DNA of 64,000 bases from assembly GCF_039691755.1 (NCBI RefSeq), contig NZ_CP137552.1, positions 124,001-188,000 of the forward strand, read 5' to 3'. Positions 41,801 to 63,677 of this stretch are shown one piece after another. The position numbers and the translations under genes are program-made. Position 1 is the first letter of the stretch, and each line of letters begins with the position of its first letter. This stretch comes from Halomonas sp. Bachu 37 (GTDB lineage: Bacteria; Pseudomonadota; Gammaproteobacteria; Pseudomonadales; Halomonadaceae). The notes below the pieces were generated by a model. The model saw only the letters and a program-made list of their open reading frames with translations, did not search any database and had not been told where the DNA came from.

Positions 41801-41811
41801 CGCCCCCGCCA

Positions 41812-41880
41812 AGGGTTGTTCGGGTCTAGCCGCCTCTTCCGAGACGGCTTGCCTGTCTTTGCTACGTCTGAATCAACCCT
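41812..41880. terminator. Hairpins between convergent mocA and paoC
   Basis: AGCCG-C-CTC (41828-41836) pairs with GAG-A-CGGCT (41841-41849) around TTCC, one mismatch. AGGGTTG (41812-41818) can pair with CAACCCT (41874-41880) outside it. The right arm overlaps the paoC stop. Suitable as a bidirectional terminator. Confidence 0.4.
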
Positions 41881-44104
41881 GCTGCGCCTGCGGCACGTCA
41901 TCCATCAGTTTGTCGAGGGTGATCGGCAGTTCGCGGATGCGCTTGCCGGTGGCATGGTGGACGGCATTGGCGATGGCGGCGGTCACCCCGGTGATGCCGA
42001 TCTCGCCGATGCCGCGGGCGCCGAACTCGTTGAACTTGTAGTCCGGATAATCGAGCAGAATGACGTCGATCTCGGGCTGGTCGGCATGCACCGGCACCAG
42101 ATACTCGGCGTAGTTGTTGTTGACCGGACGCGCATTGCGGTGGTCGTACTCGGTCTGCTCGAACAGCGCCATGCCGATGCCCATGACGATGGCCCCCTCG
42201 ACTTGGCTGCGCGAGGTCAGCGCGTTGATGGCACGGCCCACGTCGATGGCGCTGACCACCCGTGAGATGCGCAGGTTGGAGATGCCAGGGTCCCAGCGCA
42301 CCTCGACGAAATGTGCGCCGAACGAGCGAAAGGAGTACTGGTCGGTGGGTGCCGTGCCGGAATGCGCTTCGCCGTCGGCGCTGGCCAGCTTGCGGGCCTT
42401 TAGCACATCGGCGAAGGTGACCGTCCTGCCATCCGCGTTCGCGAGCTGGCCATCGGAAAAGGATATATCCTCCTTTTTAGCGCCGGCGAATACCCCGCTT
42501 TCCGAAATCGCATAACCCTTGAGTTGGTCGAGGGCAGCGCGAGCTGCCTCGGCAATGGCCGGCAGCGTCGTCGCCGTCGCCCACGAGCCGCCCGAGATGG
42601 GCCCCGACGGGTAGGACGAGTCGCCCAGTTCGACCTCGATCTTCTCCAGCGGTAGGCCGGTGATCTCACTGACCGCCTGGGCGACGATGGTGTAGGTGCC
42701 GGTGCCGATGTCCTGGGTAGCGCAGGAGGCATACGCCGTGCCGTCCGAACGTAGCGAGACTCGCGCATCGCACTCGCGGCGGATCGCCTCCCAGTTGCAG
42801 GCCGCCATCCCCCAGCCGATGATCTCGTTGCCCTCGCGCATCGAGCCGATCTCGGGGTTGCGCTTGTCCCAACCGAATTTCTCGGCAGCCTGGTCATAGG
42901 CCTCGCGGAGCTGATTGCTCGACCACGGTAGCTCCTTGCTCTGGTCCGTGTCGGAGTAGTTGCGACGGCGGAACTCGAGCGGATCGATGCCGGCCGCGTG
43001 CGCCATCTCGTCCATCGCCGACTCCAGCGCGAACATGCCCGGCGCCGCGCCGGGTGCGCGCATCGAGGTGGGCGTGCCGCGATTGTTGCGAATGATCGAA
43101 TGGGTGACCTGGGTGTTCTCGCACGCGTAGAGGGCCTTGGTCATCTGACCGCACGACTCGACGAACACCGTGTCCTGATCGAGATTCGACATGGTCGAGA
43201 TCGAGTCGTGGCGCAGCGATACCAGTCTGCCGTCGTCATCGGTCGCCAGGCGCAGGCGCTGACGGGTTTCGGGGCGGTGCCCGGTGGTGGTGAACATCGC
43301 CTGACGGGGCACGACCAGTTGCACCGGCCGACCGATTTCGCGGGCGGCGGCAGCGGCGGCAATCGCGTGCGGCCATGGCCACAGCTTGCCGCCGAAGCCC
43401 GAGCCCAGGAAGGGCGTCAGTACCTCGACGCGATCCGGCGAAAGTCCGAACACCTTGGCATAGACGTTACGCGCGTTGACCACCCCCTGAGTAGTGTCGT
43501 ACATGGTCAGCTTGCCATCGTGCCAGGCGGCAACCGTGGCGTGCATCTCCATGGGGTTGTGAGTTTCCACCGGCGTGGAGTAGGTGTAGTCGATCCGGTG
43601 GGCGGCGTTCTCGAAGGCCGGTTCGGGCTCGCCGCGTGAGTGGCCAGCACCCTCCTGCAGTTCGGGCTCGCCCTGCGCCATCGCCTGGGCGAGATTGGCG
43701 ATTGCCGCCGACTCGTGGTAGTCGGCCTTGACCTTGTAGGCCGCGGCGCGGGCGTTCTCGAAGCTGTCGGCGACGACCAGGGCGACGAACTGCCCGGCAT
43801 AATGGATCTTGTTGTCCTCGAATGGCAGCCGCTCTTCATCGACCTTGTTCTGCTGTTCCATGCTGCTGGGAGTACGAAACAGGCGGGGAAAATGATCGTG
43901 GTGGAAAATGTCGATCACGCCCGGCGACTGCTTCGCCGCGCTGAGATCGAGATTGGTGATCTCGCCGCTGGCGATGGAACTGAATACACCGTAGGCATAG
44001 ACCATGCCGTCGAGATGGTTGTCGGAAGAGTAGAGCGCGCGGCCGGTCAGCTTCAACGGGCCCTCGATGCGCGGCTTCGCGGCGCCGATAATGTTGTCAC
44101 TCAT
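41873..44104 (-). CDS. paoC: Aldehyde oxidase molybdopterin-binding subunit PaoC
   Basis: 743 residues, xanthine oxidase-family large subunit. Visible blocks are FLGSGFGGKLWPWPH, MRAPGAAPGMFALESAMDE, TQDIGTGTYTIVAQ, and near the C-terminus EFGARGIGEIGITG with the catalytic Glu in GIGE. It binds the molybdenum cofactor (cytosine dinucleotide form) and oxidises aldehydes to acids in the periplasm, without its own signal, by co-export with PaoA. Last gene of paoABC on the minus strand; 25 bases after paoB. Substrate range is unknown; a xanthine dehydrogenase is unlikely given length and the fused [4Fe-4S] PaoB. Confidence 0.87.
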   Translation of the reverse strand: MSDNIIGAAKPRIEGPLKLTGRALYSSDNHLDGMVYAYGVFSSIASGEITNLDLSAAKQSPGVIDIFHHDHFPRLFRTPSSMEQQNKVDEERLPFEDNKIHYAGQFVALVVADSFENARAAAYKVKADYHESAAIANLAQAMAQGEPELQEGAGHSRGEPEPAFENAAHRIDYTYSTPVETHNPMEMHATVAAWHDGKLTMYDTTQGVVNARNVYAKVFGLSPDRVEVLTPFLGSGFGGKLWPWPHAIAAAAAAREIGRPVQLVVPRQAMFTTTGHRPETRQRLRLATDDDGRLVSLRHDSISTMSNLDQDTVFVESCGQMTKALYACENTQVTHSIIRNNRGTPTSMRAPGAAPGMFALESAMDEMAHAAGIDPLEFRRRNYSDTDQSKELPWSSNQLREAYDQAAEKFGWDKRNPEIGSMREGNEIIGWGMAACNWEAIRRECDARVSLRSDGTAYASCATQDIGTGTYTIVAQAVSEITGLPLEKIEVELGDSSYPSGPISGGSWATATTLPAIAEAARAALDQLKGYAISESGVFAGAKKEDISFSDGQLANADGRTVTFADVLKARKLASADGEAHSGTAPTDQYSFRSFGAHFVEVRWDPGISNLRISRVVSAIDVGRAINALTSRSQVEGAIVMGIGMALFEQTEYDHRNARPVNNNYAEYLVPVHADQPEIDVILLDYPDYKFNEFGARGIGEIGITGVTAAIANAVHHATGKRIRELPITLDKLMDDVPQAQQG

Positions 44105-44129
44105 CGCAATGTCCTCGTTCGGGATGCTT

Positions 44130-45119
44130 TCAGGCGGTCAGGGTGGTCAGGTTGCGGACGATTGCCTGCCGGCCGAGCGGGATCTTGAACGCGTTATGCT
44201 TGTAGCCCTTGGCATCCTGCATCGCGATCTGCGCGGCACGCGCGAAGGTCTGCTCGGTAGCGGGCTGGCCCTTGAGCGCATTCTCCGCCTCCTTGGCGCG
44301 CCATGGCTTGGTCGCAACCCCGCCCATCGCCAGACGGGCATCGCGAATGGTATTGCCGTCCAGCGCCACGATCACCGCGCTGGAGGCGAGCGCGAACTGG
44401 TACGAGGAGCGGTCGCGCAGCTTGAGATAGGCCGATCGGGCGCCTTGAATGGGTGCATCGAGGGCCACGTGAGTGATCAGTTCGTCATCTTTCAGCGCGA
44501 ACTCTTCCCAGGGCTTGTCGCCCGGCAGCAGGTGAAAATCGAGAAAATCGATCTCGCGTGAGCCCTCGGGGCCGGTGACGCTGACCGTCGCGCCAACCGC
44601 CGCCATCGCCACGCTCATGTCCGAAGGATAGGTCGCGATGCACTTGTCGCTGGTGCCCAGCACCGCATGCACCGAGCGATTGTAGCCGTCGATGGCCGCA
44701 CAGCCCGAGCCCGGGTCACGCTTGTTGCAGGCCGATACGCCGTCACGGAAATAGGGGCAACGCACGCGCTGCATCATGTTGCCGCCGGTGGTGGCCTTGT
44801 TGCGCAGCTGGGTCGAAGCGCCGGACAGCAGTGCCTCGGAGAGCACCGCATAGCCCGGCTGGGATGTGACTTCGAAATGGTGGGCCAGTACCGAGTTGGT
44901 GACCAGCGTGCCGATTCTGAGGCGCCCGTCGTCGAGTTTTTCGATCTCGTCGAGCCCCAGCCGATTGACGTCGACCATCAGCTCGGGGCGCATGATATCG
45001 ATCTTGACCATGTCGAGCAGGTTGGTGCCGCCGGCTAGAAATGCGGCCGCCTCGGCCTGACTGTAGGTCGCCACCGCCTGATCGACGCTCTCGGCGCGGC
45101 TGTAATCGAAGTGACGCAT
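44130..45119 (-). CDS. paoB: Aldehyde oxidase FAD-binding subunit PaoB
   Basis: 329 residues. FAD site in AAAFLAGGTNLLDMVK and TTGGNMMQRVRCPYF. The cysteines in VRCPYFRDGVSACNKRDPGSG-C match the extra [4Fe-4S] cluster known in PaoB, absent from most FAD subunits. It moves electrons from the molybdenum centre through iron-sulfur clusters to FAD and an acceptor. Twelve bases follow paoA. This cluster supports the Pao name over a generic carbon-monoxide-dehydrogenase-like subunit. Confidence 0.88.
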   Translation of the reverse strand: MRHFDYSRAESVDQAVATYSQAEAAAFLAGGTNLLDMVKIDIMRPELMVDVNRLGLDEIEKLDDGRLRIGTLVTNSVLAHHFEVTSQPGYAVLSEALLSGASTQLRNKATTGGNMMQRVRCPYFRDGVSACNKRDPGSGCAAIDGYNRSVHAVLGTSDKCIATYPSDMSVAMAAVGATVSVTGPEGSREIDFLDFHLLPGDKPWEEFALKDDELITHVALDAPIQGARSAYLKLRDRSSYQFALASSAVIVALDGNTIRDARLAMGGVATKPWRAKEAENALKGQPATEQTFARAAQIAMQDAKGYKHNAFKIPLGRQAIVRNLTTLTA

Positions 45120-45131
45120 ATTGAATCTCCT

Positions 45132-45851
45132 TTATCCCATCTGCTTCCGTGCCGTCTGGATTGCGCCGAGAATATTGTTGTAGGCCCCGCAGCGGCAGAT
45201 ATTGCCGCTCATCGCCTCGCGTACCGAGGCGTCATCACTGCCAACGCTGGCGTCGTTGAGTATCGCCACGGCGGACATCATCTGCCCCGGCGTGCAGTAG
45301 CCGCATTGGTAGGCGTCATGCTCGAGAAATGCCTGCTGGATGGGGTGCAACTGACCATTCTTCTCCAACCCTTCGACGGTGGTGATCTCGTCGCCGTCGT
45401 GCATGATCGCCAGGCTCAGGCAGGAGTTGATCGCCACGCCGTTGACATGCACGGTGCAGGCGCCGCACTGGCCGAGATCGCAGCCCTTCTTGGTGCCGGT
45501 CAGTTCTAACTGATGACGCAGCACATCGAGCAACGCCATGTTGGGTGCGACATCGAGGGTGCGCTGCTGGCCATTGACGGTAAGCGTGATGCGTTGCCTG
45601 CCTTCGACCGGCCCCGCTTCGGCATCACTGGGCCGATCCGCAGGTGCTTGCTGGGCATGATTGGCGTAGTCGACCCTTGCCAGGGCCGGTGCGGTGGTAG
45701 CTGCCAGGCTGGTGGCGCCTACCGACTTGAGAAAGTGACGCCGGGAGGGCGAATGCCCCGACGCCGTTGCGGGATTATACGTTCCCACGCCGCTGGCGCG
45801 TTCGCCGTTCCGACCGGCTTGGTCGGGAAACTTGCTGTCCTTGTCTGCCAT
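45132..45851 (-). CDS. paoA: Aldehyde oxidase [2Fe-2S] subunit PaoA with Tat signal
   Basis: 239 residues. The N-terminus holds a twin-arginine signal, SRRHFLKSVG, after a long polar n-region, followed by a hydrophobic AATTAPALA stretch, so the whole PaoABC complex is probably exported folded to the periplasm. The two clusters are seen in CDLGQCGACTVHVNG/NSC and CGYCTPGQMM/ICRCGAY. ATG at 45851 follows GAGGTTGACCC. Upstream lies a palindrome and three 18-base repeats. Confidence 0.9.
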   Translation of the reverse strand: MADKDSKFPDQAGRNGERASGVGTYNPATASGHSPSRRHFLKSVGATSLAATTAPALARVDYANHAQQAPADRPSDAEAGPVEGRQRITLTVNGQQRTLDVAPNMALLDVLRHQLELTGTKKGCDLGQCGACTVHVNGVAINSCLSLAIMHDGDEITTVEGLEKNGQLHPIQQAFLEHDAYQCGYCTPGQMMSAVAILNDASVGSDDASVREAMSGNICRCGAYNNILGAIQTARKQMG

Positions 45852-46084: not shown

Positions 46085-49000
46085 TTACACAAGCTGCTCG
46101 GTGAAGACGCTCTCCTGAACTCCCATGGCTCCCAGGGCGTAGCCGACCGCCACTGAGTTTTCCTCAGGCGCTATGTCGAGAGACGGTTGGGAGAAGCTGG
46201 TGAAGGATTGGAAGGCATTCTGCTGCGGCTGGATCATCAACGATTGCAGGTCCATCGACCCGCCATTGAAGGTCAGGCGCACCACCTGCTCACCTTCCTG
46301 CAAGTCGAGAGTCACCTCGCTGCTTTGCACGTAGTTGCCCCAGGCACCGCTATTGGTAATGCTGACCGGCGCGGACTCCTCGTAGAAGACGCCGTCCTGC
46401 TCGGCCGCCACGGTGATGCTGCGACCATTGTGAGGCGTCGAGGCAATAAAGGAGAAGGTGTGCGCCCCCGCCTCGGCGACATCGACGGTGTACTCCACCC
46501 ATTCGCCATCCTCGATCCAGCCGATTGCCTCACCGTCACCGAGAATATCCACGCCTTCGCCGCGCACGTCGGGATTACCCAGCTGCACTTCGCTGCCATC
46601 GCTGTAGGCGATTCCCGCACCGCCCTGGTCGTAGTCGACGGCGTCGATCAGCAGCCCTGCGTCGTCGATCAGCCAGGGCGCGCCGTTCTCGGTGAAGGGT
46701 TGCTGAGGATTTTCCACCACCTCCTCGCGTGCCAGCGAGAGCGACTGAAGATCCATCGAGCCACCATTGAAGGTCAGCCGAACGACCTGTTCGCCTGCCT
46801 GCAGGTCGAGCGCCAGCGCCTGCGTCTGCACATAGTTGCCCCAGGCGCCGGAGTTGGGTACCGGCAGCGGTGAGGATTGCTCGTAGAAGGTCCCGTTTTG
46901 CTCGACCGACGCGGTGATGCTGCGCCCGTTATGCGGCGTCGAGGTCACGAACGAAAGCCCGTAGGTACCGGCCTGCTCGACATTGATGGTGTACTCCACC
47001 CATTCACCGTCTTCGATCCAGCCGATGGCGTCGCCATCGCCGACGATATCCACCCCTTCGCCGCGGTAGTTGCTGCCCTTCTGGCTTTCGCTGCCGTCAT
47101 TGTATGCCACCCCGGGGCCACCGGCATCGTAGTGGGCCGCTTCGAGCGTCAAGCCGTCATCGCCTACCAGCCAGGGTGTTTTGCTGGCGTTGAACGGTGT
47201 CTGGCCGTCATCGTCGTCCGGCGCTTCGCCCACGTTCAGGGTGAAGCCGCTTTCGACACTGGCGCTGCCGTCCGAGGCGGTGACCAGGATATCGAAGCTG
47301 CCCGCTGCGGTCGGTGTGCCCGAGATGACGCCCGCTGCCGAAATCGCAAGCCCCGCGGGCAAGCCGCTGGCGGTGTAGCTCAGGCTGTCACCATCGGCAT
47401 CGCTGAAGGCATCCGTGGGGATCGTGTAGCTGAAGGACTCATCTTGGGTCGCTTCAAGGTCCACAAGCCCACTGCCCACCACCGGTGCCGTGTTGCTGGG
47501 CGCCACGGGGGACAGGGTGAAAGAGGCCAGATCCTGGGAGCCGCCGTTGAAGGTCAGGCGCACCACCTGCTCGCCGGCCTGGAGATCTACCTGGACGCTT
47601 TCGGTCTGTTCGAAGTTGGTCCAGCTACCGCTGTAGTCGACCGCTACCGCCGCGGCGGTCTCGTAGACGCTGTCGCCCTGGGCGAACGACGCGGTAATCG
47701 AGCGAGAGGAACCGTTAGTGGAGCCCATTGACGACAGGAACGACAGCTCGTAACTGCCCGCCTGAGCGACATTGATGGTGTACTCGACCCACTCGCCGTT
47801 TACCACCCAGCCGATGGCGGTGCCGTTGCCGACGATATCCACGCCTTCGCCGCGGTAGTTGCTGCCTTCCTGGTTCTCGCTGCTGTCGACGTAGGCCACC
47901 CCCGGGCCGCCGGCGTCGTAGTGGGCGGCCACGAGTGTCAGGCCGTCATCGTCCACCAACCAGGGGGTTTCATCGGCGTTGTAGGGCGTCTGCACAACCG
48001 GCTCATCCGGCACGTCGGGCATGTCGCCGTCCAAGAAGTTGGGCACGCCGTCACCGTCGTCGTCATCATAGAGATCGACGCGGCCGTTGCCGTCGGCATC
48101 TTCTACCCCGGTGGGGTCGTAGGGCTTAACGTTCTCGACCAGGAAGATGTTGTCGTTGTAGTCGTAATTCACCCCCGCGTAGTCCTGGATCACGACATAG
48201 GTGTGGGGAATGACATTACCGGCGCCATCCTTGGCTACGTAGACGCGAATCAGGTGGCCGTCGTTCTCATCCCAGTTGAGGTTGGTTCCGGGGCTGCCGA
48301 TCTCGTCAACGGTATCCTCATAGAGGTTGGCGTCGGGGTCGGACCAGGAAATATAGCCCTGGCGCCCGGTGATGTCGGCAAAGAAGCCGAAGGGGTCGTC
48401 ACGATCGAGGGTAGCCATGGCCAGCTGGTCGCCGCTATCGAGCGCCCGGGGCAGCAGCGTCTGACCGTCCTGCTCGTCATGGGCGATCACCTCGTCGATA
48501 TCGCGACTGTCGACATCATGAATGTACAGCCGCGCCACATCGCCCTGGGTGTGATACGCCGCCAGCTGGGTGATCTTGATCGGGGAGCCACCGTCGGCAC
48601 GCTGGAAGTACGGCGACAGGATCTCGTCACCGTTGGCCTCCACCAGGCCGCCCTTGTTCATTTCACTCTCGGCGACATTGGTCGAGAAACCGAAGGCGTC
48701 GATGATTTCCTGAACCAACGGCTCCCTGCCTTTTTCCGATTCTCCCTGGGCAAGGCCCGCCAGCTGGATGACCTTCTGCCCTTGATTGGCGTCATTGGAA
48801 TTGATGAGCAACGATGTCTCGTACAGCGTTGCATCGTCGAAATCCTCGGCGATAAAGCGAACCGTCACGTTCAGGGTGCCGCCCGGAGGGATGATGAGGT
48901 TTTCTGTCGCTCCCACGATTTCGAACAGCGTCGGGTCGGCGATCTCCAGGCTGCTTATCTCCAGATTAGCGAAGCCGTCGTTGGTGATGGTGAAGGTGGA

Positions 49001-52000
49001 TTCGTCGTGGAACACCTGACTGTCGCTGGCCGGGTCTTCAATCCGACTCATCACCAGGCGCTCGTTCGACGGAACCCCATCCAGGTTGGTGATCGATATC
49101 TCGCCGCCGGAGACTGGTGATATCCCTTCGATGACAAACATGTTGTCGTTGTAGTCGTAGTTGATGCCGGTGTAATCCATGATGCCCAGGTAGGTATTGG
49201 GAATCACGTTGCCGCTGGCATCCAGCGCCTGGAACATGCGCACCGTGTAGCCGCGCTCGATACCCGCGGCATCCTCCGGCACCGTGCCGCCGCCCGTTGG
49301 GTTGAGCGAAGGATCGGTGGAGAGGTTGGCGACCTCAATGCCGAAGATATCGTTACCGATCCAGCCGTCAGGGATCTGGTCGCGGGTAAATGTCGCGGTG
49401 GCGAACTGGCCGTTGGACTTGATCGGCAGCAGCGACTGGTTGTTGTCGCTGGCATGGTTGGAGAGGGTAATATCCTGGCCCTTGTTGCCGGGATTATGAA
49501 TGCCCAGTGTGGCACCGCCGCTGCCATGGTAGGCCGCCAGCTGCGTGATCTTGGCCGACTCGAAACCCTCGGCGATCTTCCAGTAGCGAGACATCACCTC
49601 GTCATCGTTGATCGGTCGATAGAGATCGAAGTCGTTGAGTACCGAGTTCTCGCCGCCCCGCCGGGTGGACAAGCCGTCGATCACGTTACCGAAGCCGAAT
49701 ACCTCCCAGACCTCGTTGACGTTGGGTTCCCAGCCGCCTTCGTCGCGGGCCTGCCAGAAACCGGCCAGGTGAACTTCGGCCACGGGCGTATCGGCGTCGT
49801 TGGTCACCAGACGCAGCTTGCCCTCGAAAACACCGTCGCCGGCATCGTTGGTGGGCGGGATATAGGCTGGTCGATCAAACAGCACTTCCACTGCGATCGA
49901 TTCGCCCGCCGCCAGGGTCAGACCGTTGAAGATACCCGGGTCGGCAAGGATGAACGGGCCGTCGAGATCGACGTCGATGAAGGTCAGCTCATTGGTACCG
50001 GTATTGCTGATGGTGACCGTGGCGTCCTCCTTGTAGTCACGGTTCGGGCTGGAGGCGCTGTTGTTCTCCAGATAGCTGAAGTGCAGGCGGTCCGAGAAGT
50101 AGGCCGCATCGTTGCTCTGAATGGCGATATCCGCATCCGGGTCGCCCGGGGCCGAAGACACATCCAGATAGTCGATCTCGTTGGCGCCGTCCGCCGTAGA
50201 AATGACACGCAGGTTGTAGGACACCCCCGCTTGCAGTTCGACATAAGCGGACTGCTCACCGGCATCGCCCACCCCGGGGAAGGCCATCTTGTCGATCTGC
50301 TGGCCGTTGAGCAACAGGGTCAGCTGCCCGCCATTGGGAGAGCCGCTGTTGGCCGCCAGGTCGAGCTTATAGGCGCCGTCTTCGTTGACCGTGAAGTAGA
50401 AGTCGGCGGTGCGTTCGTTGACAGCCCGAGCGCTATCGCCGCTTTCCAGCTCGATGCGGCCACTGCCGTCGATATCGGCATAGCTGGGCTCGAAGGAATC
50501 GAGCGGGGTATCCGAGACGCGCAGCAAGTCGATGTTGGGGCCGTTGGCATCCGGTGCGGTTACGGTAATGGTATTGCTGCCTGCCCCCAGCGTTACCGAG
50601 GTGCTCTGGAAGAACCAGTTATCTTCGGCGGCGTTGCTTTGGCCGGGGAAGTTAAGGATTCCAAAGGCGATGCCGTTGATCGCAACGGCCATCGGTCGGT
50701 CGGCCTTGGTGGCCGCCAGGGCATAGCGGAAGCCGACCTCGTAGGTGCCCGCTTCCGCCACCTCGACCGTCCAGGTGATGCTCTGGTCACTATTGCCGGT
50801 GAAATCGACGAAGCCCTCGCCGGAGGCGTTGTGGTCATCTTGATCGGCGCTGATGACCACCGGGCCGTCGAGCTGGGCGTCTTCGGCCTCGTAGTCGATA
50901 TAGCCCGGTGTGGCGTCTGCCGGCTCCTGCAGAATCTCCAGCTGGTCGATATTGGGACCGGTATTGGCGACGGACTGGAAGCGCACCGTGTTGAGCCCTG
51001 ATACCAGCTCGGCAGGGATATCCAGCGTCAGCCACTCGTTCCAGGCATCGTCGCCGGTAACGCTCGTTGGCGGACTGAAAGCGAAGGTGCCCACGCTGAC
51101 GTTATTGACGAATACCTCCAGCGGCCGGTCGGAGGTCGCACCGTTGGCGTAGCGAACCCGCAATACCGACTCGCCGGCATCGGCCCCCGAAAGCTCGAAA
51201 TTGAAGGTCAGGAAGTCGGCGTTGGTGCTGCCGAAATCGGCATACCCCCCCAGTACGCCATCATCGTCATTGTTGTTGCCATCCAGGCCATAAGCTCCGG
51301 GCCGAACGCCGGTAGGCTGGTTGGCTTCAGGGTTATCGGTGGTACGGATCTGGATCTCTGCGCCATTGACTTGGGCAATCGAGACGCTGGTACCGTCGTC
51401 GGGAGTATTGTCCTCGGCCTGGATAATCAGCAGCGAAGCCAGACCGTCGCTGGGCTCTTGAGGATCGACCGGATCGGGTAATTCGCCGCCGGGTGCCGGA
51501 TCCAGGCGCACTATCTGGCTCTGGCCGTTGTTGCGGTTCAGCGTCAGCAGGTAAAGTTGGCCGGTGGCCGGGTTCTCGATGATGTCCAGCGGGTCGATAT
51601 AGGTGATGACGTTGCCGTTGACATCCCGCAGTACTTCGTCGCCGGTGATGTTGCCGTTGGCGTCGAAGGTAATGGAGCGAATGTCGTCGCCGCCGGAATA
51701 CTCGGTGAATAGCACGCTGCCCTGGAGGTTGCCGCCGAATACGCCACTGGTGTACTCGGTCACGCCGTTGGGAGAGCGGTTTTCACCCAGGGAGTAGACG
51801 CCGTCCATGTCATAGTTGGGGTCGGGCTGCTGACCGACAGGGTACTTGTTCACCTGGTGGGGATCGCTGCCCGAGGTCGGGTTGCCGCCATTGAGAATGA
51901 ACTCGTCGCGCAGCGGGTTGGGGTGGCCGTAATAACCGCCTTTCTCGACCGTGAACAGGTAGTCGTCCTGTTTTTCGACGTTGCTCTGGTACTCGTTTTC

Positions 52001-55000
52001 CGGCGTCGAGGGGTCGTCCGGTACGTTGCCGCCGGCCGCCGAGCCGTTGGTCGGTATGTAGAGCTTGCCATCGGAGTGCCACACCAGGTCGTAGGCATTG
52101 CGGATGCCGGTGGCGAAAATCTTGACCACGGCGTCTTCCGCGAAGGGGTCGTAGTAACTCTCGATCGTATCGCCGTTGGAATTCTCCACCGTCGCGGTAC
52201 CGTTGGGCGCGAACACCAGGAAGCGGTCGTTGCCCATGGCGATCGGATCGGCCTTGAAATCGACGCCGTCATCGTCGGTGTAACGGCGGTTTAAGCCGTC
52301 TTCGGGCAGGGGCTCGGTCGTGACGTCAAAGCCGCCTGCCGGTGCGTCACGCGTCGGATCGATTTCCATGACGGCGGCATTGAGCAGACGCTCGGGGCGG
52401 TTACCCCAGGCGCTGTCCGGTGCCCCCATCGCCGTATTGGACCCCTGGATCAGGTACAGTAGATGCGTCGGCACGTCCGGATTGGTCGCGGCGTCGTACG
52501 CCGGATTGGCCCGGAATTCGAGGCTGTTGGTGACATGGTCGCCGTTGGAGCGCGGCAAGCCGGTGATATAGGGCTCGGCCGTTGCGCTGAACTCCTCGCC
52601 CGCATCCAAGGTAATCTTCAGGATGCGACCGCTGAAGTCCGGTACGCCATTGTCACGCCCGGTAAGCGGGATCGGATAGTTGTCGGTCACCCACAGGACG
52701 TTGGGGTCGGTGGGGTCGAACGTCAGGCCAATGATGCCGCGCGTTCCCGCCGAATCACCCTGGAAGATGTCCAGCGACAGAACCTGCTCGTTGGACAGCG
52801 CTCCGGTCTGGGGGTCGATATCGTAACGCTTGATTTGCCCCATCATGTTCGTGATGTACATCTTGCTGCCGTCAGGCGAAATTTCCAGCGAGGTGAACTG
52901 GAAGGCGTTGTCCTCGGCACCGTTCAATTCGACCGTATGGCTGAAGGCCACTTCCCGAGGCACGACTTCCTGTGCTTCGCCGGTAACGAAGGTGTTGGTG
53001 AATTTCTGGAACATCCGGGTCGGTGCATCGGGATTGTCGTTTTCGCCACGATCCTGGAAGCCGTCGATCACCAGGGTATAGCTGGTATGCTCCTTGAGCA
53101 TGCTGTTAGGCGAGATAGTCAGGGAATCGAAGCCACCGGTGGTGTTGACGTTGAGGCTCACTTCTTCGCCGCTGACGGTCTCGAACAGCCTTACGGACCC
53201 ATCATCAAGGCTTTCGAGCAGGGCGCCGCCACGACCGTCGACCACGGAAATGCCCACGAAGATGTCCGAACCGGGATCGACATTCACCGGTACGCTGCCA
53301 TCTTCCGGGTCGAGTTCGACCCGGCTCACGCTGGCGCCGACACCGGCAATGGCCCTGGGGTCATTGAAGAACGCATAGTCCTCAGGCGCTTTCCGATCGT
53401 CATCAGGGCTCAGGTCGGGCAGCGACTGGATCTCGATGTACTGGATTTCGGTATTGTCACCCAGCCCGATCGAGTCGAGTGTCAAGCGGCCATCGGTGAC
53501 ATGCACCACCCGGGTCACCAGGTCTGAACGGAAGCCGTCGGTATCGTCGCCGGGGTTGTTGTCCTCCGGGAAGTCGTCCGGGCGGAAGGGGGTAAACGGA
53601 TCGTTGAACAGCTCACCCTCGGCATTGATGGCATTGACGCTGTCGTAGGGGCCGGAGGTGTTGCCGATGGCGATGGTCACCTCGTAGAAGCCGTCGTCCA
53701 GCTCCATTTCCCAGCCTGCGCGCACGTAATTGGCGGCGGGCTGGTCAAAGTGGGCATAGGTGCCCTGGCGCGGGTCGAGTCCGGCGATGTCGTCGGTGCG
53801 GTCGTTGACCGCCACGCTGGTGAGGTCGGCAATGGCCAGAGGGATGGTGCCGTTGTCGGTGCCATCGGCAATCGAAGCTTCGGTGACCCAGCCGTACTGG
53901 TAGCTCTTGCCGCCAATCTCGACCGACCGGTCGCCGAATGCCAGGCCGGTATCCGCCACATAGCCATCCGGCGTGGCGAATCCCTCGGGCTCGAAGTTGA
54001 TCTTGACCGAGAAACGCTCGCCCGGCTCGACGAACGGCGGCTCTTCGGGTTCTTCGACAATGCCACGGCTGACACTCAGGCTATCGATGTTGGGTCCGGC
54101 GTTGCCGGCGTTCTCCAGGCGAATCGTGTTGCTGCCTGCCTCGAGTTCGACCTCGATGGTCGCCTTGCCCCAGCTCAGCCAGCCCTCGTTGCCCACGCCG
54201 GTGATCGGGAACGCCATTTCCCCCTGGGACTCGCCGCCGACGATGATATTCATCGGCCGGCCGGCGCCGCTGCCATCACCGTTGGCATAACGCACCGCCA
54301 GGGTATAGGTGCCGGCTTCCTCGACTTCCACGTCAAAGAAGGCCGCATCACCGGCTTCGTTACCCATATCGAGATAACCACTGCCGGTGTAGCCGTCCCA
54401 TAGCCCACCGGGGCCGGCAGCTTCGTTGGTTTCCGGGTTGCTGGCGTCGCGAATCACGGTATCGGGGGTCGGCTCGTCGTCATCGATGGCCAGCGCCTCG
54501 CCTTGGATCTCGAACAGGAACGGCTCTTCTACAGGCATTTTGTCGATGCTAAGAGTGGTGGAAGCGTTCGCCTGGTTGCCGGCGGTATCGGTGACGTAGA
54601 CGATGGCCGTGACCGCACCAGTGAACGCACTGAGATCCGCCGTGAAGTTTCCGTTTGCCTCCGGCGTGATGGGCGTACGTGTCGCGCCGCCATCGAAGCT
54701 GACCTCGACGGTCTGGATATCGTCGTCGATACCCGTGACGGTGAAGCCCGCTGTGGCGGCCTCCTCGGGGTCGAGAGTGGCATCAGCGGCCATCAGGGCC
54801 AGATTGCCATCCTCGTCGGCGGAGGTGTCTTCTTCGATCGGCCCGCTATCCGTCTCGGTGATTTCGATGCGGTCGATGTTGGGGCCGGTATTGGCGCCTT
54901 CGGGAATCGCCAATGACAGCATATTACTGCCGGCCGCAAGCTCGACCGTGACGGTCTCGAATGCCCAGTGGTCGAAGCCTGCTTCCGGGCCGGAGCCGTC

Positions 55001-58000
55001 CGGGTCGGTAGTGGTAAATGGCAGCTGGGTGACGCTGCCATTGACGCTCAGATCCAAGGGGCGATCGGTGTTGGTGGCGTAGCGGATACTGAGATCGTAG
55101 GTGCCGGCCACAGCGACAGTGACATCGAACGTCACCGCATCGCCGGCGGTATCGCCGAAATCGACGTAACCGGTACCCGAATAATCCGGACGAAGGCCAC
55201 TGAAGCTATTACCTGCCTCGGGATTGTCCGCATCGCGGACGGTGGTGACGGTGGCATTGCTGCCATTGTCGAGTATGGTCAGTTCGCCGTCTTCCGCCTG
55301 AAGCACGATGGCAACGGGGTCCGGCTCGGGCTCCGGTTCAACGCCGCTGGTAGGCACGAATTCGATATAGTCGAAGCGCGCATATTCCAAAGCCTCCGAG
55401 TTGGCACTGAGCGACAGGGTCGCGTTGTCACCGACCACGACATCCTCGAAGGTCATGGTGCGCAGGTTCTGCGCCTGGGTGCCGTTGCCGCTGTCGGCGT
55501 CATCGTCGAAGGTCCAGCTACCACTGAAGCTCTCGCCCTCGGCGTTGCCGATGCTCAGCCGGGCGGTGCTCTCGCCGTCGTTCTCGTCGAAGTAACCGAC
55601 CACCACGGTATAGGTACCGGCGGCTACCTTGCCGTCGAGGTTGTAGCCGGCCGTGCCTTCGCTGTTGCCGGGCAGGCGAATGCCCTGACCGCCGTCCGCA
55701 ACGGTAATATTCTCGACGGTGAAAGTGCTGGCGCTGTCAAAGTCCTCCGCCTGCAGGCGAATCGATTCGACGGGCTCCACTGGTGCTTCGTCGTCTTCGC
55801 TTACGCTACCGGTGGCGGTCGCCGCTTCCGGATCGATGACGAAGTCATCACCTTGCGCGTCGGTCAGGGTCACGCTGACCGTCTCGGTGCCGTTGTCCTC
55901 GTCGTCGTTGGGTACCGCAACCGTCAGGATGGCCACACCGTCGGTGAAGCTCACCGTGCGCGTCTCGGCGACGCCGTCGATGGTCAGTTCGAGGGTGATA
56001 TCCCCGCTGAAATCATCCGAGGCGGAGAGGCCGAAGCTCAGGTTGGTCACGCCGTCATCGCCGCTTTCGACCATGTCCGACGTGTTGGCAATGGCCACAA
56101 CTGTGGCGGGCTGCGGCTCGACCGGATCGTCCGCGTCGATGGGTTCGAACTCGATGTAATCGATACGCGCATATTCCAGTGCCGTCGAGTTGGCACTGAG
56201 CGACAGGGTCGCACTGTCACCGACCACGACATTCTCGAAGGTCATGGTGCGCAGGTTCTGCGCCTGGGTGCCGTTGCCGCTGTCGGCGTCGTCATCGAAG
56301 GTCCAGCTACCGCTGAAGCTCTCGCCCTCGGCATTGGCGATGCTCAGCTGGGCGGTGCTTTCGCCGTCGTTTTCATCAAAGTAAGCCACCGTCACGCGGT
56401 AGGTGCCGGCCGCCACCTTGTCGGCCAGTGCATAGCTGGCGGTGCCTTCGGTGCTCGCCGGCAGGCGCAGGCTCTGGCCGCCGTCCGCCGCCGAGACGTT
56501 CTCGACGGTGAATGCCGTGGCCGCGTCGAAGTCTTCCGCCTGCAGGCGGATGGGGTCGACCGGAACGGGGGGAGGAGTTGTTTCGTCATCGACGTCTCCG
56601 ACGGCAATCACGAATGTCTCGGTAACACTCGCACCCGCCGGGTCAGTGGCGGTGACTTCGACACTGACTTGCGTTTCCGTTTCGAAGTCGAGGCTGGTTT
56701 CGCTTTTCAGACGCAATAGCCCGTTGGCATCCACCTCGAAGCGCTCATCGCTGACGGTGAAACTATGGGAGTCGCCATCTTTGTCTTCCACGGTGAGGTG
56801 GCCGATGGCGGCACCTTCCTGGTTCTCCAGCACGCCGTCGTTGTCCAGCTGAATAGCCGTTGGCGTCGTGGGCTCTGCCGCCACCAATGCCATTTCGATT
56901 TTATCGATATTGGGTCCATTGGCACGCCCGCCCAGCCTGAGCAGGTTCTCGCCGGCGGCTAGCGTGAATTCGATTGTCTCCGTGGTCCATCCTTCCCACT
57001 CCGACGCTGCGGGATTCCCGGAGCGGTTGGTCCCCACCTTCACCTCACTGGGCAGGTCGGAAAGATCATCAGGCATGTAACCGGGCGATGTCGTGGTCGA
57101 GAACGCGAAGGTGCCAAGGGCGGTCGTTTCACCGCCTGCGACCAGTGAGAGGTCCAATGGCCTGTCGCTGCTAGAGGCGTAAGTGACGGTCATGGAATAG
57201 GTGCCGGCGGTTGGCGCCTGATAGGTAAATTCGCCGTAGGCCTCGGCATTGCCGTATGCCCAATCCAGATAACTGGACTCCTCGGCGCCGACCCGGAAGG
57301 TATCGTCGAGATCGACGATATTGGCGCTGGTGATCGGGCGGTTGGTGTCGTTGCCCTGGGGAGTCAAAACCGCTGCCGGTGACAAGATCAGATCTTCACC
57401 CTGAATGACCTGGCTGCCTGGGGCGGGCTTTCGAATCTCGAGGTAGTCCACATTGGGGCCACTGGCGCCATTCGAGGTGAAGCTGATGGTGTTTGACCCC
57501 GCCTGCAGCGAAACGGTGACGGTGCGCTCGGCGAAAGTGGTGAAGTCGCTCGAATCATCGTTACCTTCGGCACTGGTGCTGCGCAGATCGAACATGCGAT
57601 CGACAAGCTGGTCGTTGACGTCCAGACGCAGAGGGCGGTTACGTTCACCCGCGTCATTGTCGCGACTCAGGGCATAGCTCAGTGCCAGTTCATACTCGCC
57701 AGCCTCGGGCATATCGACACTGAAAGTCAGCGTTTCACCGCTTGGAGCGCCAAAGTCGGCGTAAGCGTTGCCGTCGGCATTGATACCGTTTGGGTCGCCT
57801 TCGACGGCGGTAATCCCACCCTCGAGAGTGGCGAAGTTGCCATCGCCATCGGCGTTTTCGATGTCTTCCGCCTGGATACGGATAGGCTCGAACTCAGAGG
57901 GGGGCGAGGTGGTTTCGGTAAGCTCGAAATCCACGGTGTCGCTTGCATCCTCAATGACGTTGCCTTTGCTATCGAGAGCATTGATGAGCAGTTGGACACT

Positions 58001-58255
58001 TCCACTGGCGAAATCGGGAAGGTCATTGAATATGAAGGGGGGCGAGGACTTGGCTAGCGTCTGGGTCTGACCGTTACCGTAGGCGATGACCAGTTCGATT
58101 TCCTCGGTCTGCTGCAAAGGGTCAAGGGGGCCGGTGATCTTGGGAATGATGCGTATGGCGCTGTCGCTTACTTCGTCCAGCGTAATCGTCTGTAAATTAT
58201 TCAGGCCGCGCTGAAATTCTTGGCTGGTTGCATTGATCCAGGAAATCGAAAACAT
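46085..58255 (-). CDS. Giant mosaic protein with many carbohydrate-binding-like modules and a sugar-dehydrogenase-type propeller
   Basis: 4056 residues, acidic. Approximate modules by residue: N-terminal region 1-115; CBM-like modules (AED near the start, GPNxDxxE(I/L) at the end) near 120-265, 275-450, 570-700, 830-968, 978-1137, 1245-1397, 2272-2443, 2448-2582 and a divergent one at 2590-2700; cadherin-like 468-555; Calx-beta-like 717-822; Ig-like 1152-1243; malectin-like 1415-1612; SbsA/Ig-like 1632-1762; six-blade glucose/sorbosone-dehydrogenase-type propeller 1768-2253 (TRGIIGLTFDP, GIRNAYDLVWHSDGKLYIP); two ASH-like domains, 2738-2862 and 3075-3198, each followed by a module ending near NYDYNDN; Asp-rich calcium-binding-like 3382-3415; three CBM6-like modules 3423-3582, 3685-3840 and 3852-4010 with a putative-Ig domain 3585-3675. 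No Sec signal peptide and no RTX nonapeptides seen, so secretion is unclear. Likely a surface or released polysaccharide-binding protein; activity of the propeller is unknown. GGGGTG precedes the ATG. Confidence 0.9.
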   Translation of the reverse strand: MFSISWINATSQEFQRGLNNLQTITLDEVSDSAIRIIPKITGPLDPLQQTEEIELVIAYGNGQTQTLAKSSPPFIFNDLPDFASGSVQLLINALDSKGNVIEDASDTVDFELTETTSPPSEFEPIRIQAEDIENADGDGNFATLEGGITAVEGDPNGINADGNAYADFGAPSGETLTFSVDMPEAGEYELALSYALSRDNDAGERNRPLRLDVNDQLVDRMFDLRSTSAEGNDDSSDFTTFAERTVTVSLQAGSNTISFTSNGASGPNVDYLEIRKPAPGSQVIQGEDLILSPAAVLTPQGNDTNRPITSANIVDLDDTFRVGAEESSYLDWAYGNAEAYGEFTYQAPTAGTYSMTVTYASSSDRPLDLSLVAGGETTALGTFAFSTTTSPGYMPDDLSDLPSEVKVGTNRSGNPAASEWEGWTTETIEFTLAAGENLLRLGGRANGPNIDKIEMALVAAEPTTPTAIQLDNDGVLENQEGAAIGHLTVEDKDGDSHSFTVSDERFEVDANGLLRLKSETSLDFETETQVSVEVTATDPAGASVTETFVIAVGDVDDETTPPPVPVDPIRLQAEDFDAATAFTVENVSAADGGQSLRLPASTEGTASYALADKVAAGTYRVTVAYFDENDGESTAQLSIANAEGESFSGSWTFDDDADSGNGTQAQNLRTMTFENVVVGDSATLSLSANSTALEYARIDYIEFEPIDADDPVEPQPATVVAIANTSDMVESGDDGVTNLSFGLSASDDFSGDITLELTIDGVAETRTVSFTDGVAILTVAVPNDDEDNGTETVSVTLTDAQGDDFVIDPEAATATGSVSEDDEAPVEPVESIRLQAEDFDSASTFTVENITVADGGQGIRLPGNSEGTAGYNLDGKVAAGTYTVVVGYFDENDGESTARLSIGNAEGESFSGSWTFDDDADSGNGTQAQNLRTMTFEDVVVGDNATLSLSANSEALEYARFDYIEFVPTSGVEPEPEPDPVAIVLQAEDGELTILDNGSNATVTTVRDADNPEAGNSFSGLRPDYSGTGYVDFGDTAGDAVTFDVTVAVAGTYDLSIRYATNTDRPLDLSVNGSVTQLPFTTTDPDGSGPEAGFDHWAFETVTVELAAGSNMLSLAIPEGANTGPNIDRIEITETDSGPIEEDTSADEDGNLALMAADATLDPEEAATAGFTVTGIDDDIQTVEVSFDGGATRTPITPEANGNFTADLSAFTGAVTAIVYVTDTAGNQANASTTLSIDKMPVEEPFLFEIQGEALAIDDDEPTPDTVIRDASNPETNEAAGPGGLWDGYTGSGYLDMGNEAGDAAFFDVEVEEAGTYTLAVRYANGDGSGAGRPMNIIVGGESQGEMAFPITGVGNEGWLSWGKATIEVELEAGSNTIRLENAGNAGPNIDSLSVSRGIVEEPEEPPFVEPGERFSVKINFEPEGFATPDGYVADTGLAFGDRSVEIGGKSYQYGWVTEASIADGTDNGTIPLAIADLTSVAVNDRTDDIAGLDPRQGTYAHFDQPAANYVRAGWEMELDDGFYEVTIAIGNTSGPYDSVNAINAEGELFNDPFTPFRPDDFPEDNNPGDDTDGFRSDLVTRVVHVTDGRLTLDSIGLGDNTEIQYIEIQSLPDLSPDDDRKAPEDYAFFNDPRAIAGVGASVSRVELDPEDGSVPVNVDPGSDIFVGISVVDGRGGALLESLDDGSVRLFETVSGEEVSLNVNTTGGFDSLTISPNSMLKEHTSYTLVIDGFQDRGENDNPDAPTRMFQKFTNTFVTGEAQEVVPREVAFSHTVELNGAEDNAFQFTSLEISPDGSKMYITNMMGQIKRYDIDPQTGALSNEQVLSLDIFQGDSAGTRGIIGLTFDPTDPNVLWVTDNYPIPLTGRDNGVPDFSGRILKITLDAGEEFSATAEPYITGLPRSNGDHVTNSLEFRANPAYDAATNPDVPTHLLYLIQGSNTAMGAPDSAWGNRPERLLNAAVMEIDPTRDAPAGGFDVTTEPLPEDGLNRRYTDDDGVDFKADPIAMGNDRFLVFAPNGTATVENSNGDTIESYYDPFAEDAVVKIFATGIRNAYDLVWHSDGKLYIPTNGSAAGGNVPDDPSTPENEYQSNVEKQDDYLFTVEKGGYYGHPNPLRDEFILNGGNPTSGSDPHQVNKYPVGQQPDPNYDMDGVYSLGENRSPNGVTEYTSGVFGGNLQGSVLFTEYSGGDDIRSITFDANGNITGDEVLRDVNGNVITYIDPLDIIENPATGQLYLLTLNRNNGQSQIVRLDPAPGGELPDPVDPQEPSDGLASLLIIQAEDNTPDDGTSVSIAQVNGAEIQIRTTDNPEANQPTGVRPGAYGLDGNNNDDDGVLGGYADFGSTNADFLTFNFELSGADAGESVLRVRYANGATSDRPLEVFVNNVSVGTFAFSPPTSVTGDDAWNEWLTLDIPAELVSGLNTVRFQSVANTGPNIDQLEILQEPADATPGYIDYEAEDAQLDGPVVISADQDDHNASGEGFVDFTGNSDQSITWTVEVAEAGTYEVGFRYALAATKADRPMAVAINGIAFGILNFPGQSNAAEDNWFFQSTSVTLGAGSNTITVTAPDANGPNIDLLRVSDTPLDSFEPSYADIDGSGRIELESGDSARAVNERTADFYFTVNEDGAYKLDLAANSGSPNGGQLTLLLNGQQIDKMAFPGVGDAGEQSAYVELQAGVSYNLRVISTADGANEIDYLDVSSAPGDPDADIAIQSNDAAYFSDRLHFSYLENNSASSPNRDYKEDATVTISNTGTNELTFIDVDLDGPFILADPGIFNGLTLAAGESIAVEVLFDRPAYIPPTNDAGDGVFEGKLRLVTNDADTPVAEVHLAGFWQARDEGGWEPNVNEVWEVFGFGNVIDGLSTRRGGENSVLNDFDLYRPINDDEVMSRYWKIAEGFESAKITQLAAYHGSGGATLGIHNPGNKGQDITLSNHASDNNQSLLPIKSNGQFATATFTRDQIPDGWIGNDIFGIEVANLSTDPSLNPTGGGTVPEDAAGIERGYTVRMFQALDASGNVIPNTYLGIMDYTGINYDYNDNMFVIEGISPVSGGEISITNLDGVPSNERLVMSRIEDPASDSQVFHDESTFTITNDGFANLEISSLEIADPTLFEIVGATENLIIPPGGTLNVTVRFIAEDFDDATLYETSLLINSNDANQGQKVIQLAGLAQGESEKGREPLVQEIIDAFGFSTNVAESEMNKGGLVEANGDEILSPYFQRADGGSPIKITQLAAYHTQGDVARLYIHDVDSRDIDEVIAHDEQDGQTLLPRALDSGDQLAMATLDRDDPFGFFADITGRQGYISWSDPDANLYEDTVDEIGSPGTNLNWDENDGHLIRVYVAKDGAGNVIPHTYVVIQDYAGVNYDYNDNIFLVENVKPYDPTGVEDADGNGRVDLYDDDDGDGVPNFLDGDMPDVPDEPVVQTPYNADETPWLVDDDGLTLVAAHYDAGGPGVAYVDSSENQEGSNYRGEGVDIVGNGTAIGWVVNGEWVEYTINVAQAGSYELSFLSSMGSTNGSSRSITASFAQGDSVYETAAAVAVDYSGSWTNFEQTESVQVDLQAGEQVVRLTFNGGSQDLASFTLSPVAPSNTAPVVGSGLVDLEATQDESFSYTIPTDAFSDADGDSLSYTASGLPAGLAISAAGVISGTPTAAGSFDILVTASDGSASVESGFTLNVGEAPDDDDGQTPFNASKTPWLVGDDGLTLEAAHYDAGGPGVAYNDGSESQKGSNYRGEGVDIVGDGDAIGWIEDGEWVEYTINVEQAGTYGLSFVTSTPHNGRSITASVEQNGTFYEQSSPLPVPNSGAWGNYVQTQALALDLQAGEQVVRLTFNGGSMDLQSLSLAREEVVENPQQPFTENGAPWLIDDAGLLIDAVDYDQGGAGIAYSDGSEVQLGNPDVRGEGVDILGDGEAIGWIEDGEWVEYTVDVAEAGAHTFSFIASTPHNGRSITVAAEQDGVFYEESAPVSITNSGAWGNYVQSSEVTLDLQEGEQVVRLTFNGGSMDLQSLMIQPQQNAFQSFTSFSQPSLDIAPEENSVAVGYALGAMGVQESVFTEQLV
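55363..56440 (-). repeat. Near-identical duplicated module inside the giant gene
   Basis: The DNA encoding the CBM-like modules at residues about 570-700 and 830-968 is repeated at a spacing of 789 bases (for example 55381 aligns with 56170). The best conserved part, around 55430-55580 versus 56220-56370, differs at only a few bases, many of them in third codon positions. The repeat brackets the Calx-beta-like domain, so the duplicated block is one CBM plus one linker domain. It is the clearest recent expansion in the gene. Confidence 0.75.
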
Positions 58256-58328: not shown

Positions 58329-59554
58329 GGAAACGCTGCACAAATCCCACCGCAGCTGCCTGATTGGTACCGGCGGGGTATAATCTGACCTTCCTGCCAC
58401 CGTCTGACAGAGCCACCCGATGAAGCAGATCTCGTTTGCCCAAGCCGAGCACCAGAACAAGAAAAAAGTCACCCGCCGCGAGCGGTTCCTGGCCCAGATG
58501 GAGGCGCTAGTGCCTTGGCAACGGCTGATCGATGCACTGTCGCCGTCCTACTTTCCCAACGCGGCAGGCAAGCGCGGCCGGCCCCCCATCGGCCTGGAGC
58601 GCATGCTGCGGATCTACTTCCTGCAGCAGTGGTACGCGCTTGCCGATGAGGCGCTCGAAGATGCCATCTACGATAGCCAGGCCATGCGTGACTTCATTGG
58701 TATCGACCTGGCCATCGAGAGTGTGCCGGACGCGACCACGCTGCTGCGTTTCCGCCACTTGTTGGAGAAGCATGCGCTGACCCAGCGGATCTTCGAGGAA
58801 ATCAATGCCCATCTGACCGAGAAGGGCCTGTTCATGCGCGAGGGCACCATTGTCGATGCCACCATCGTGGCGGCGGCGCCTTCCACCAAGAACAAGGCCA
58901 AGCAACGCGATCCGGAGATGAAGCAGACCAGGAAGGGCAAGCAGTATTACTTTGGCATGAAGGCTCATATCGGCGTTGATGCCGTCACCGGGCTGGCTCA
59001 CAGTGTCACTGCCACCTCGGCCAATGTCGCCGATGTCACCATGGTGAACCAGCTGGTCCGAGACGATGACAAGCAGGTATACGGCGACGCGGGTTACACC
59101 GGCATGTGGAAGTATCTGGACGAAGAGAAGGATGCCCCGGCCTCCCGCTGCTGTGTTGCCGCCAAGCGCAGCCCCATCAAGAAGATGGAAGACAGCCCCA
59201 TGAAAACGCTGCTGCTGGCAATCGAGAAGGCCAAGGCCAGCATCCGCTCCAAGGTCGAGCATCCGTTTCATGTCATCAAGAACCTCTTCGGCTACCGCAA
59301 GGTGCGCTACAAGGGGTTGGCCAAGAACCAAGCGCAGCTATTCAGCCTGTTCGGACTGGCCAATTTGGTACTGGCGACACGATGCGAAGGCCGAGTTGAC
59401 GGGGCCAGTGCGCCTTGAATCTGCCCTGTCAGCCGGATAGTCCGGCTGGCAGGAAAAACAGACCACCTAAGGTGGTTAGAAAATGATCGCTGACTCGGTG
59501 ATTTTGCTACTCTGAGTCCTTCAGTCGCTCAGAGGCTAATTGATCAGCGGTTCC
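58329..59554 (+). mobile_element. IS5-family insertion sequence, about 1.23 kb
   Basis: The left end GGAAACGCTGCACAAA (from 58329) is an imperfect inverted match to ATTGATCAGCGGTTCC (to 59554), with the transposase gene between. Left flank is TTAA and right flank CTAG; both fit the YTAR target preference of the IS5 group, but they are not identical as a simple target duplication would be. Two hairpins lie after the transposase stop (59425-59453 and 59462-59476). The element is complete enough to be active. Confidence 0.75.
58420..59418 (+). CDS. IS5-family transposase
   Basis: 332 residues. The N-terminal domain has the pattern ALVPWQRLIDALSPSYFPN and MLRIYFLQQWYALAD of IS5 transposases; the DDE catalytic domain includes EGTIVDATIVAA (first Asp), QVYGDAGYTG (second Asp) and VEHPFHVIKNLFGYRKVRYKG (Glu and the Y-2-R-3-E-6-K-like helix). 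It carries its own promoter-like TATAAT at 58379-58384. No frameshift is needed. Confidence 0.95.
   Translation: MKQISFAQAEHQNKKKVTRRERFLAQMEALVPWQRLIDALSPSYFPNAAGKRGRPPIGLERMLRIYFLQQWYALADEALEDAIYDSQAMRDFIGIDLAIESVPDATTLLRFRHLLEKHALTQRIFEEINAHLTEKGLFMREGTIVDATIVAAAPSTKNKAKQRDPEMKQTRKGKQYYFGMKAHIGVDAVTGLAHSVTATSANVADVTMVNQLVRDDDKQVYGDAGYTGMWKYLDEEKDAPASRCCVAAKRSPIKKMEDSPMKTLLLAIEKAKASIRSKVEHPFHVIKNLFGYRKVRYKGLAKNQAQLFSLFGLANLVLATRCEGRVDGASAP

Positions 59555-59605: not shown

Positions 59606-63677
<4,072 letters not shown>

Follow-up and report, generated by a model that had tools for sequence, protein, structure and literature searches.

A giant carbohydrate-binding protein with an internal sugar-dehydrogenase-type propeller in Halomonas sp. 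Bachu 37 and its putative link to type I secretion

The giant gene and its protein

The window analyzed here, a stretch of 64,000 nucleotides from Halomonas sp. Bachu 37 (C1:124001-188000 of the source genome, contig NZ_CP137552.1; coordinates below are positions within this window), carries the gene for a giant mosaic protein with modules of the carbohydrate-binding module (CBM) families 6 and 35, immunoglobulin (Ig)-like domains and an internal propeller, which we regard as a probable type I secretion substrate of the exopolysaccharide-linked kind. The gene (P0001; 46085..58255, minus strand) encodes 4056 residues according to the list of open reading frames and their translations. Its frame, which starts with ATG and is preceded by only 8 in-frame codons, is unbroken across 12 kb, as an earlier sequence-only reading of this DNA had stated without noting the strand. 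The protein contains no cysteine and has a net charge of -526, as computed from the sequence. In a global alignment with the V. titanicae orthologue, 78% of the residues were identical, and the ratio of nonsynonymous to synonymous substitution rates (dN/dS) in four blocks ranged from 0.06 to 0.16; although these ratios are rough because dS is high (1.1 - 1.8), they indicate that the gene is under purifying selection between the window and V. titanicae. The idea that the giant is a chance or antisense artefact was rejected. Plus-strand open frames inside the gene, for example at 49454-51001 (515 aa) and 54968-56719 (583 aa, the longest), are probably shadows of the GC-rich coding strand. A tandem-repeat origin was also rejected, as a repeat search found no array in the gene. 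Signals in a promoter and terminator scan 5' of the gene were not above those of shuffled sequences.

Modules were called by single-module scans against Pfam with curated cut-offs, plus one whole-protein scan. From the N- to the C-terminus, the layout is as follows:

57884..58255, minus strand: N-terminal domain, residues 1-124, without a Sec-like hydrophobic stretch (top 12-residue hydropathy 0.74)
56876..57883, minus strand: two CBM6/35-like modules, residues 125-460, below the Pfam cut-off
54836..55312, minus strand: CBM35 module, residues 982-1140 (41.5 bits, cut-off 28)
54050..54514, minus strand: CBM35/CBM6 module, residues 1248-1402 (CBM_35 36.5 bits, cut-off 28)
53390..54025, minus strand: malectin-like domain, residues 1411-1622, where the conserved core begins (no Pfam match here)
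52964..53389, minus strand: Big_5-type Ig domain, residues 1623-1764 (20.5 bits, cut-off 23.6)
51452..52963, minus strand: glucose/sorbosone-dehydrogenase-type propeller, residues 1765-2268, from profile and structure comparison
50501..51433, minus strand: module without Pfam match plus CBM35 module, residues 2275-2585 (CBM35 35.7 bits, cut-off 28)
49106..50143, minus strand: ASH + DYND, first copy, residues 2705-3050 (predicted local distance difference test score, pLDDT, of the model 91.7)
48101..49105, minus strand: ASH + DYND, second copy, residues 3051-3385, by similarity
46232..47983, minus strand: three CBM6 modules, residues 3425-4008, with a He_PIG Ig domain between the first and the second, by Pfam scan
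46088..46231, minus strand: C-terminal tail, residues 4009-4056, a candidate signal for type I secretion (some relatives share GVQE)

Six CBM6/CBM35 modules of the giant exceeded the curated cut-off in single-module scans, and about half of its CBM-like modules, of which the sequence-only reading had counted about a dozen, scored below it. Beside these six and He_PIG, further modules were weak or unrecognised; the whole-protein scan added Big_13 and, summed, the HYDIN/ASH family. Among the malectin-, cadherin-, Calx-beta- and Ig-like domains that had been proposed, the Ig-like ones (He_PIG, Big_13) were recovered, Cadherin reached 21.3 bits (cut-off 28.8), and Calx-beta and malectin gave no match to the giant in the Pfam scans, although PF11721 is nonetheless listed for some homologues. 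NCBIfam yielded weak matches only (choice-of-anchor D, and another at E 0.14). The ASH units have the ASH fold and form two ASH+DYND units, which the sequence-only reading, naming ASH-like pairs, had not recognised as such. Compared with two alphaproteobacteria, the DYND halves of the window show 44-66% identity. As almost no match in a structural search of ASH+DYND extended into the DYND half, which was thus barely tested, no new fold is claimed for it.

A large family with a conserved core

The region search scored 1749 proteins, 296 of which reached E 1e-3 or better. Among the 120 matches listed, named homologues are mostly titled "carbohydrate-binding protein", and the part constant to them is the malectin-like-to-propeller block of approx. 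845 residues. In most comparisons of per-domain identity, the core and the ASH/DYND units were the most conserved parts and the arms were variable; the Salinicola example has a weak second ASH/DYND copy. Shorter propeller proteins are common, with 914 of the 7996 scored reaching E 1e-3 or better, and those among the 120 matches listed include proteins of cyanobacteria, Chitinophagaceae and Myxococcaceae; Big_5 is joined to the propeller in most of the listed shorter relatives with domains given. An RTX Pfam is given for 6 of the 120 homologues listed, and L098 carries 15 RTX matches. Within the genus, the giant is patchy (6 of 25 genomes, source genome counted).

The giant thus belongs to a large family with relatives in several other bacterial groups that is already named "carbohydrate-binding protein" in databases, a point that the sequence-only reading had missed, along with the likely type I secretion and the exopolysaccharide link. 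Its statement that no characterised protein of this architecture is known in this group held for the open-licence literature searched, where we found no study of the family and no described orthologue. What is new here is that this broad family is linked to type I secretion and has a partly altered dehydrogenase site. Overall, what had been observed from the sequence was partly confirmed, and its interpretation was half right.

Two side observations concern the family. Halomonas litopenaei SYSU ZJ2214 has two giant-family genes (L048 and L066) a short distance apart on a single contig, one of them short (2045 aa). At the cyanobacterial locus L104, the open frame of the propeller gene (propeller at 10805-12115) does not include an ASH/DYND-like stretch found at 14707-15810 of that locus, so that each part may have its own gene in this case.

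The propeller and its cofactor site

Comparison with soluble glucose dehydrogenase (sGDH), Asd and AA12 supports the six-blade, glucose/sorbosone-dehydrogenase-type fold that had been read from the sequence. Pfam GSDH (PF07995) was not listed for the whole giant up to E 1 and scored 15.4 bits on the excised propeller, below its cut-off of 25; with E values up to 1 allowed, the same model matched 35 of the 39 members of the alignment. A single-sequence phmmer search of a 567-residue propeller piece against the PDB was set aside, as all 11 chains found matched the module behind the propeller; a profile was needed to reach propeller homologues.

Residues were compared among 80 aligned propellers from several phyla, with sGDH numbering for the equivalents:

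52535..52537, minus strand: His1907, equivalent of the sGDH catalytic base His144, kept in 80/80 propellers
52097..52102, minus strand: Arg2052-Asn2053, equivalents of sGDH Arg228/Asn229, kept in 80/80 and 78/80
52040..52048, minus strand: Asn2070-Gly2071-Ser2072, aligned with the sGDH calcium loop Gln246-Gly247-Pro248
51584..51595, minus strand: Asp2221-Pro-Leu-Asp2224, standing where sGDH has Arg406-x-Arg408-Asp

The proposed alignment of pyrroloquinoline quinone (PQQ) and calcium ligands to sGDH gave a divided answer. The glycine of the predicted calcium loop (equivalent of Gly247) is present in 79 of the 80 propellers, whereas none of the 80 has the C-terminal PQQ-binding pair Arg406/Arg408 at the corresponding position, where all read D/N-P-L/I-D. 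In four of the 80 (L039, L053, L065 and L068), an Arg stands a few residues before this site, and Arg1839 and Arg1902 are near-invariant in the propeller. The propeller thus looks like one that retains a sugar-dehydrogenase-like active centre without part of the usual cofactor site.

Cofactor supply was assessed by pqqE over its cut-off as the only pqq gene searched. None of the 6 giant carriers among 38 genomes, source genome included, has pqqE, while it was found in 7 of the 38 (6 of the 19 other same-genus genomes and G035 of the order). In the wider set, pqqE is present in 29 of 50 giant-bearing genomes (14/28 Halomonadaceae-type and 15/22 alphaproteobacterial). As pqqE is missing from all 6 carriers yet present in 29 of 50 genomes of the wider set, the giant appears uncoupled from PQQ synthesis.

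These results bear on the earlier suggestion that the protein oxidises sugars in place, for which the His/Arg/Asn constellation speaks, and against which stand the missing Arg pair, the carriers without pqqE and the glycosaminoglycan binding of HHIP. A non-catalytic propeller, which would act as a structural or lectin-like hub in the manner of its heparin-binding structural relative HHIP, is a substantial possibility that we place somewhat short of even; that 78 to 80 of 80 propellers across several phyla keep the equivalents of His144, Arg228 and Asn229 goes beyond the needs of a scaffold and argues against it. We entertain more tentatively that the giant could be an extracellular oxidoreductase, its propeller an active sugar dehydrogenase dependent on PQQ and calcium or on another cofactor, with the CBM arms targeting polysaccharide. 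Against such an enzyme, the places of Arg406/Arg408 read D/N-P-L/I-D throughout, while even CcPDH still has Arg621, common to sGDH and Asd; the carriers among the 38 genomes lack pqqE; no electron acceptor domain was recognised in the whole-protein scan; and the window propeller falls below the GSDH cut-off. A more specific version, which we consider unlikely, would be a matrix-embedded oxidoreductase in a widespread family of type-I-exported giants, with a re-wired cofactor site in which Arg1839 and Arg1902 perhaps substitute for the lost pair, that oxidises chain ends of CBM-held polysaccharide and alters the charge or cross-linking of the matrix. Both the non-catalytic and the catalytic propeller are compatible with type I export, and the likelihoods given for them and for secretion are not mutually exclusive.

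Linkage to type I secretion genes in relatives

We fetched 79 loci, i.e., 65 proteobacterial (35 Halomonadaceae-type and 30 alphaproteobacterial) and 14 distant ones; L094 (Salinicola) was counted as Halomonadaceae-type in the locus counts and among the 30 "others" for the C-terminal motif, and L063, L071 and L074, which look frame-broken, were retained. A type I secretion system (T1SS) gene was defined as an ATP-binding cassette (ABC) match with E<1e-40 over 400 aa or a membrane fusion protein (MFP) match with E<1e-15 over 250 aa within 6.5 kb. Such a gene was found in 53 of the 65 proteobacterial loci (31/35 Halomonadaceae-type and 22/30 alphaproteobacterial), and both ABC and MFP were present in 49 (28 and 21, respectively); in the distant group, an ABC match was found in 1/14 loci. 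The operon lies upstream and divergent in Halomonadaceae, whereas in 20 of the 22 alphaproteobacterial cases it lies downstream on the same strand. Its third gene encodes an outer-membrane efflux protein (a cluster of 17 loci, two members scanned). MFP matches are scarce, with 3 in the source genome of 3.49 Mb, and a close MFP (at least 86%) occurs in 4 of 24 same-genus genomes, each time beside the giant; one of these is the genome that the query came from. LuxR-type genes recur near 10 loci (one scanned), and 7 loci have EAL or GGDEF-EAL genes nearby (two scanned). By a simple hydropathy test (maximum 0.74), the giant has no Sec-like N-terminus.

The closest transporter in the source genome (ABC 67%, MFP 62%; G000:C1:1706784-1710085) lies far from the window and is followed, in order, by an outer-membrane efflux gene and by Bac_transf, ManC, glycosyltransferase and Wzm/Wzt-type genes. 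In V. titanicae, the related transporter adjoins six genes of the same exopolysaccharide cluster, and 9 of 13 queried genes lie within 20 kb. All three genomes without an operon at the giant's locus (the source genome, V. titanicae BH1 and NRS2HaP1) carry the related transporter, and they have only an MFP of approx. 60% and more distant ones. In H. halmophila and Cobetia, where a contig ends close to the giant, an MFP of 75-76% is found at another place in the genome.

A second ABC/HlyD set in the source genome (L026/L027; G000:C1:1721880-1732688) stands beside a gene for a 1608-aa protein, the start of which we take to resemble a LapA-type retention module.

Neighbours of the giant gene in the window

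58384..59462, plus strand: insertion sequence (IS) element of IS5 type, with a transposase at 58420-59418 and 16-base ends matching at 13
60828-63677: SNF2-type helicase gene, past the IS5 element
40209-45851: molybdenum hydroxylase genes directly downstream of the giant, with 2Fe-2S (weak Tat motif), FAD and molybdopterin subunits

The IS5 element lies approx. 130 bp upstream of the start of the giant, where Halomonadaceae relatives mostly have the divergent transporter operon. Many plasmids carry related IS5 transposases (best 77%, Halopseudomonas, among the matches listed). DNA 5' of the giant matches that of the compared relatives in one 62-base stretch only. The molybdenum hydroxylase group includes an XdhC-type gene on the opposite strand.

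Proposed explanation and alternatives

The view of the giant as a type I secretion substrate of the exopolysaccharide-linked kind builds on its architecture, fold and residue conservation, the T1SS linkage in relatives and the lack of a Sec-like N-terminus. A Cys-free, acidic chain made in the cytoplasm without a Sec signal would exit through an ABC/HlyD/TolC channel, directed by a C-terminal signal, and would fold outside the cell; in agreement with the earlier reading of a surface-held or released protein, the giant is thus predicted to be extracellular. With no dedicated transporter at the locus in this genome, the giant would have to leave through the related one inside the exopolysaccharide cluster. 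The CBM6/CBM35-type modules may hold exopolysaccharide at several points and so cross-link or anchor the matrix; the core of malectin-like domain, Ig domain, propeller and ASH-DYND would be the conserved working part, with exchangeable CBM arms, and the propeller might either oxidise the ends of sugars, using a quinone bound in another manner, or solely bind saccharide.

Several observations weigh against this explanation. The secretion link is drawn from genomic evidence, and about half of the CBM-like modules are sub-threshold. No ABC/HlyD genes lie beside the giant in the window, and the V. titanicae BH1 and NRS2HaP1 loci likewise have no transporter operon; in NRS2HaP1, the 20 kb around the related transporter hold only the three T1SS genes and none of the genes of that exopolysaccharide cluster. 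Twelve of the 65 proteobacterial loci have no T1SS gene within 6.5 kb, some owing to a contig end; no such gene lies within reach in L071, L075, L083, L086, L087, L093, L098 and L100, and the alphaproteobacterial L071, L083 and L086 have more than 7 kb on each side without one. A motif search found no GG.G.D RTX motif in the giant, and hence no RTX nonapeptide. A C-terminal motif (regular expression) fits 25/33 Halomonadaceae-type proteins and 14/30 others, and not the tail of the window protein, which shares GVQE only.

A classical cell-surface adhesin of the LapA/Bap type, with a foreign surface (alga, plant or mineral) rather than the cell's own exopolysaccharide as its target, is a somewhat unlikely alternative. 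The size of the giant, its Ig-like domains, the T1SS linkage and the GGDEF/EAL genes near some loci would suit it, as would BapP, described in the passages at hand (PMC12153261) as a biofilm adhesin that bears a propeller and has putative T1SS genes next to it. No tandem repeats were found in the gene of the giant, however, the closest transporter sits in an exopolysaccharide cluster, and the 1608-aa protein beside the second T1SS presumably is the more LapA-like one. That the giant is a decaying, unexported remnant in the source genome seems improbable: the locus has no transporter operon and an IS5 element close upstream, but the frame is intact, dN/dS against V. titanicae is low (even if dS is high and V. 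titanicae is operon-less as well), and all three operon-less genomes have the related transporter.

If a type I secretion substrate linked to exopolysaccharide is what the giant represents, a large family of "carbohydrate-binding proteins" would be connected with export machinery dedicated to it and, in two examined genomes, with exopolysaccharide genes, and one conserved core is singled out for study. An active propeller would make it a secreted matrix enzyme of a kind undescribed in the open-licence literature searched; an inactive one would be another sugar-dehydrogenase fold turned into a glycan-binding hub.

Comparison with known systems

With sGDH, E. coli-type Asd and fungal AA12, the giant shares the propeller fold and the equivalents of His144, Arg228/Asn229 and the calcium loop; unlike them, it has no Arg406/Arg408 pair, carries its propeller inside a 4056-aa mosaic and lacks a Sec-like N-terminus. 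Lys377 of sGDH lies outside the region that the alignment of the giant with sGDH covers; it is lacking in AA12. The HHIP-C propeller is of the same fold class (approx. 14% identity over the aligned part). In the available passages on it, HHIP binds glycosaminoglycan (heparin) and is described as a ligand-binding antagonist (PMC8660895); it is an animal protein with EGF repeats, unlike the giant. The Saccharophagus degradans megaproteins are likewise very large, acidic and multidomain; the excerpted account (PMC2386152) describes a secretion signal for them, which sets them apart from the giant, and no propeller core.

BapP of Pseudoalteromonas tunicata, like the giant, combines a propeller with beta-sandwich modules and has putative T1SS genes adjoining; the passages at hand (PMC12153261) differ from our protein in giving it 1600 aa, a five-blade N-terminal propeller, a predicted Sec signal and Calx-beta/Big_9 repeats, and they name no CBM mosaic. 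The Rap proteins of Rhizobium leguminosarum, among them the RapA2 lectin, are, in the part of the source available (PMC5061743), type I substrates exported by PrsDE that bind the exopolysaccharide of their producer and shape the matrix, and several PrsDE substrates are encoded at a distance from the transporter; RapD (PMC9298526) is named beside this precedent. Rap proteins have Ra/cadherin-like domains, whereas the giant has CBM6/35 arms and a sugar-dehydrogenase propeller, with a Cadherin match below the cut-off. They are also far smaller than the giant. By analogy, RapA/PrsDE would be the nearest tested precedent for the export and matrix role proposed here, and BapP a second one for a propeller-bearing protein beside T1SS genes.
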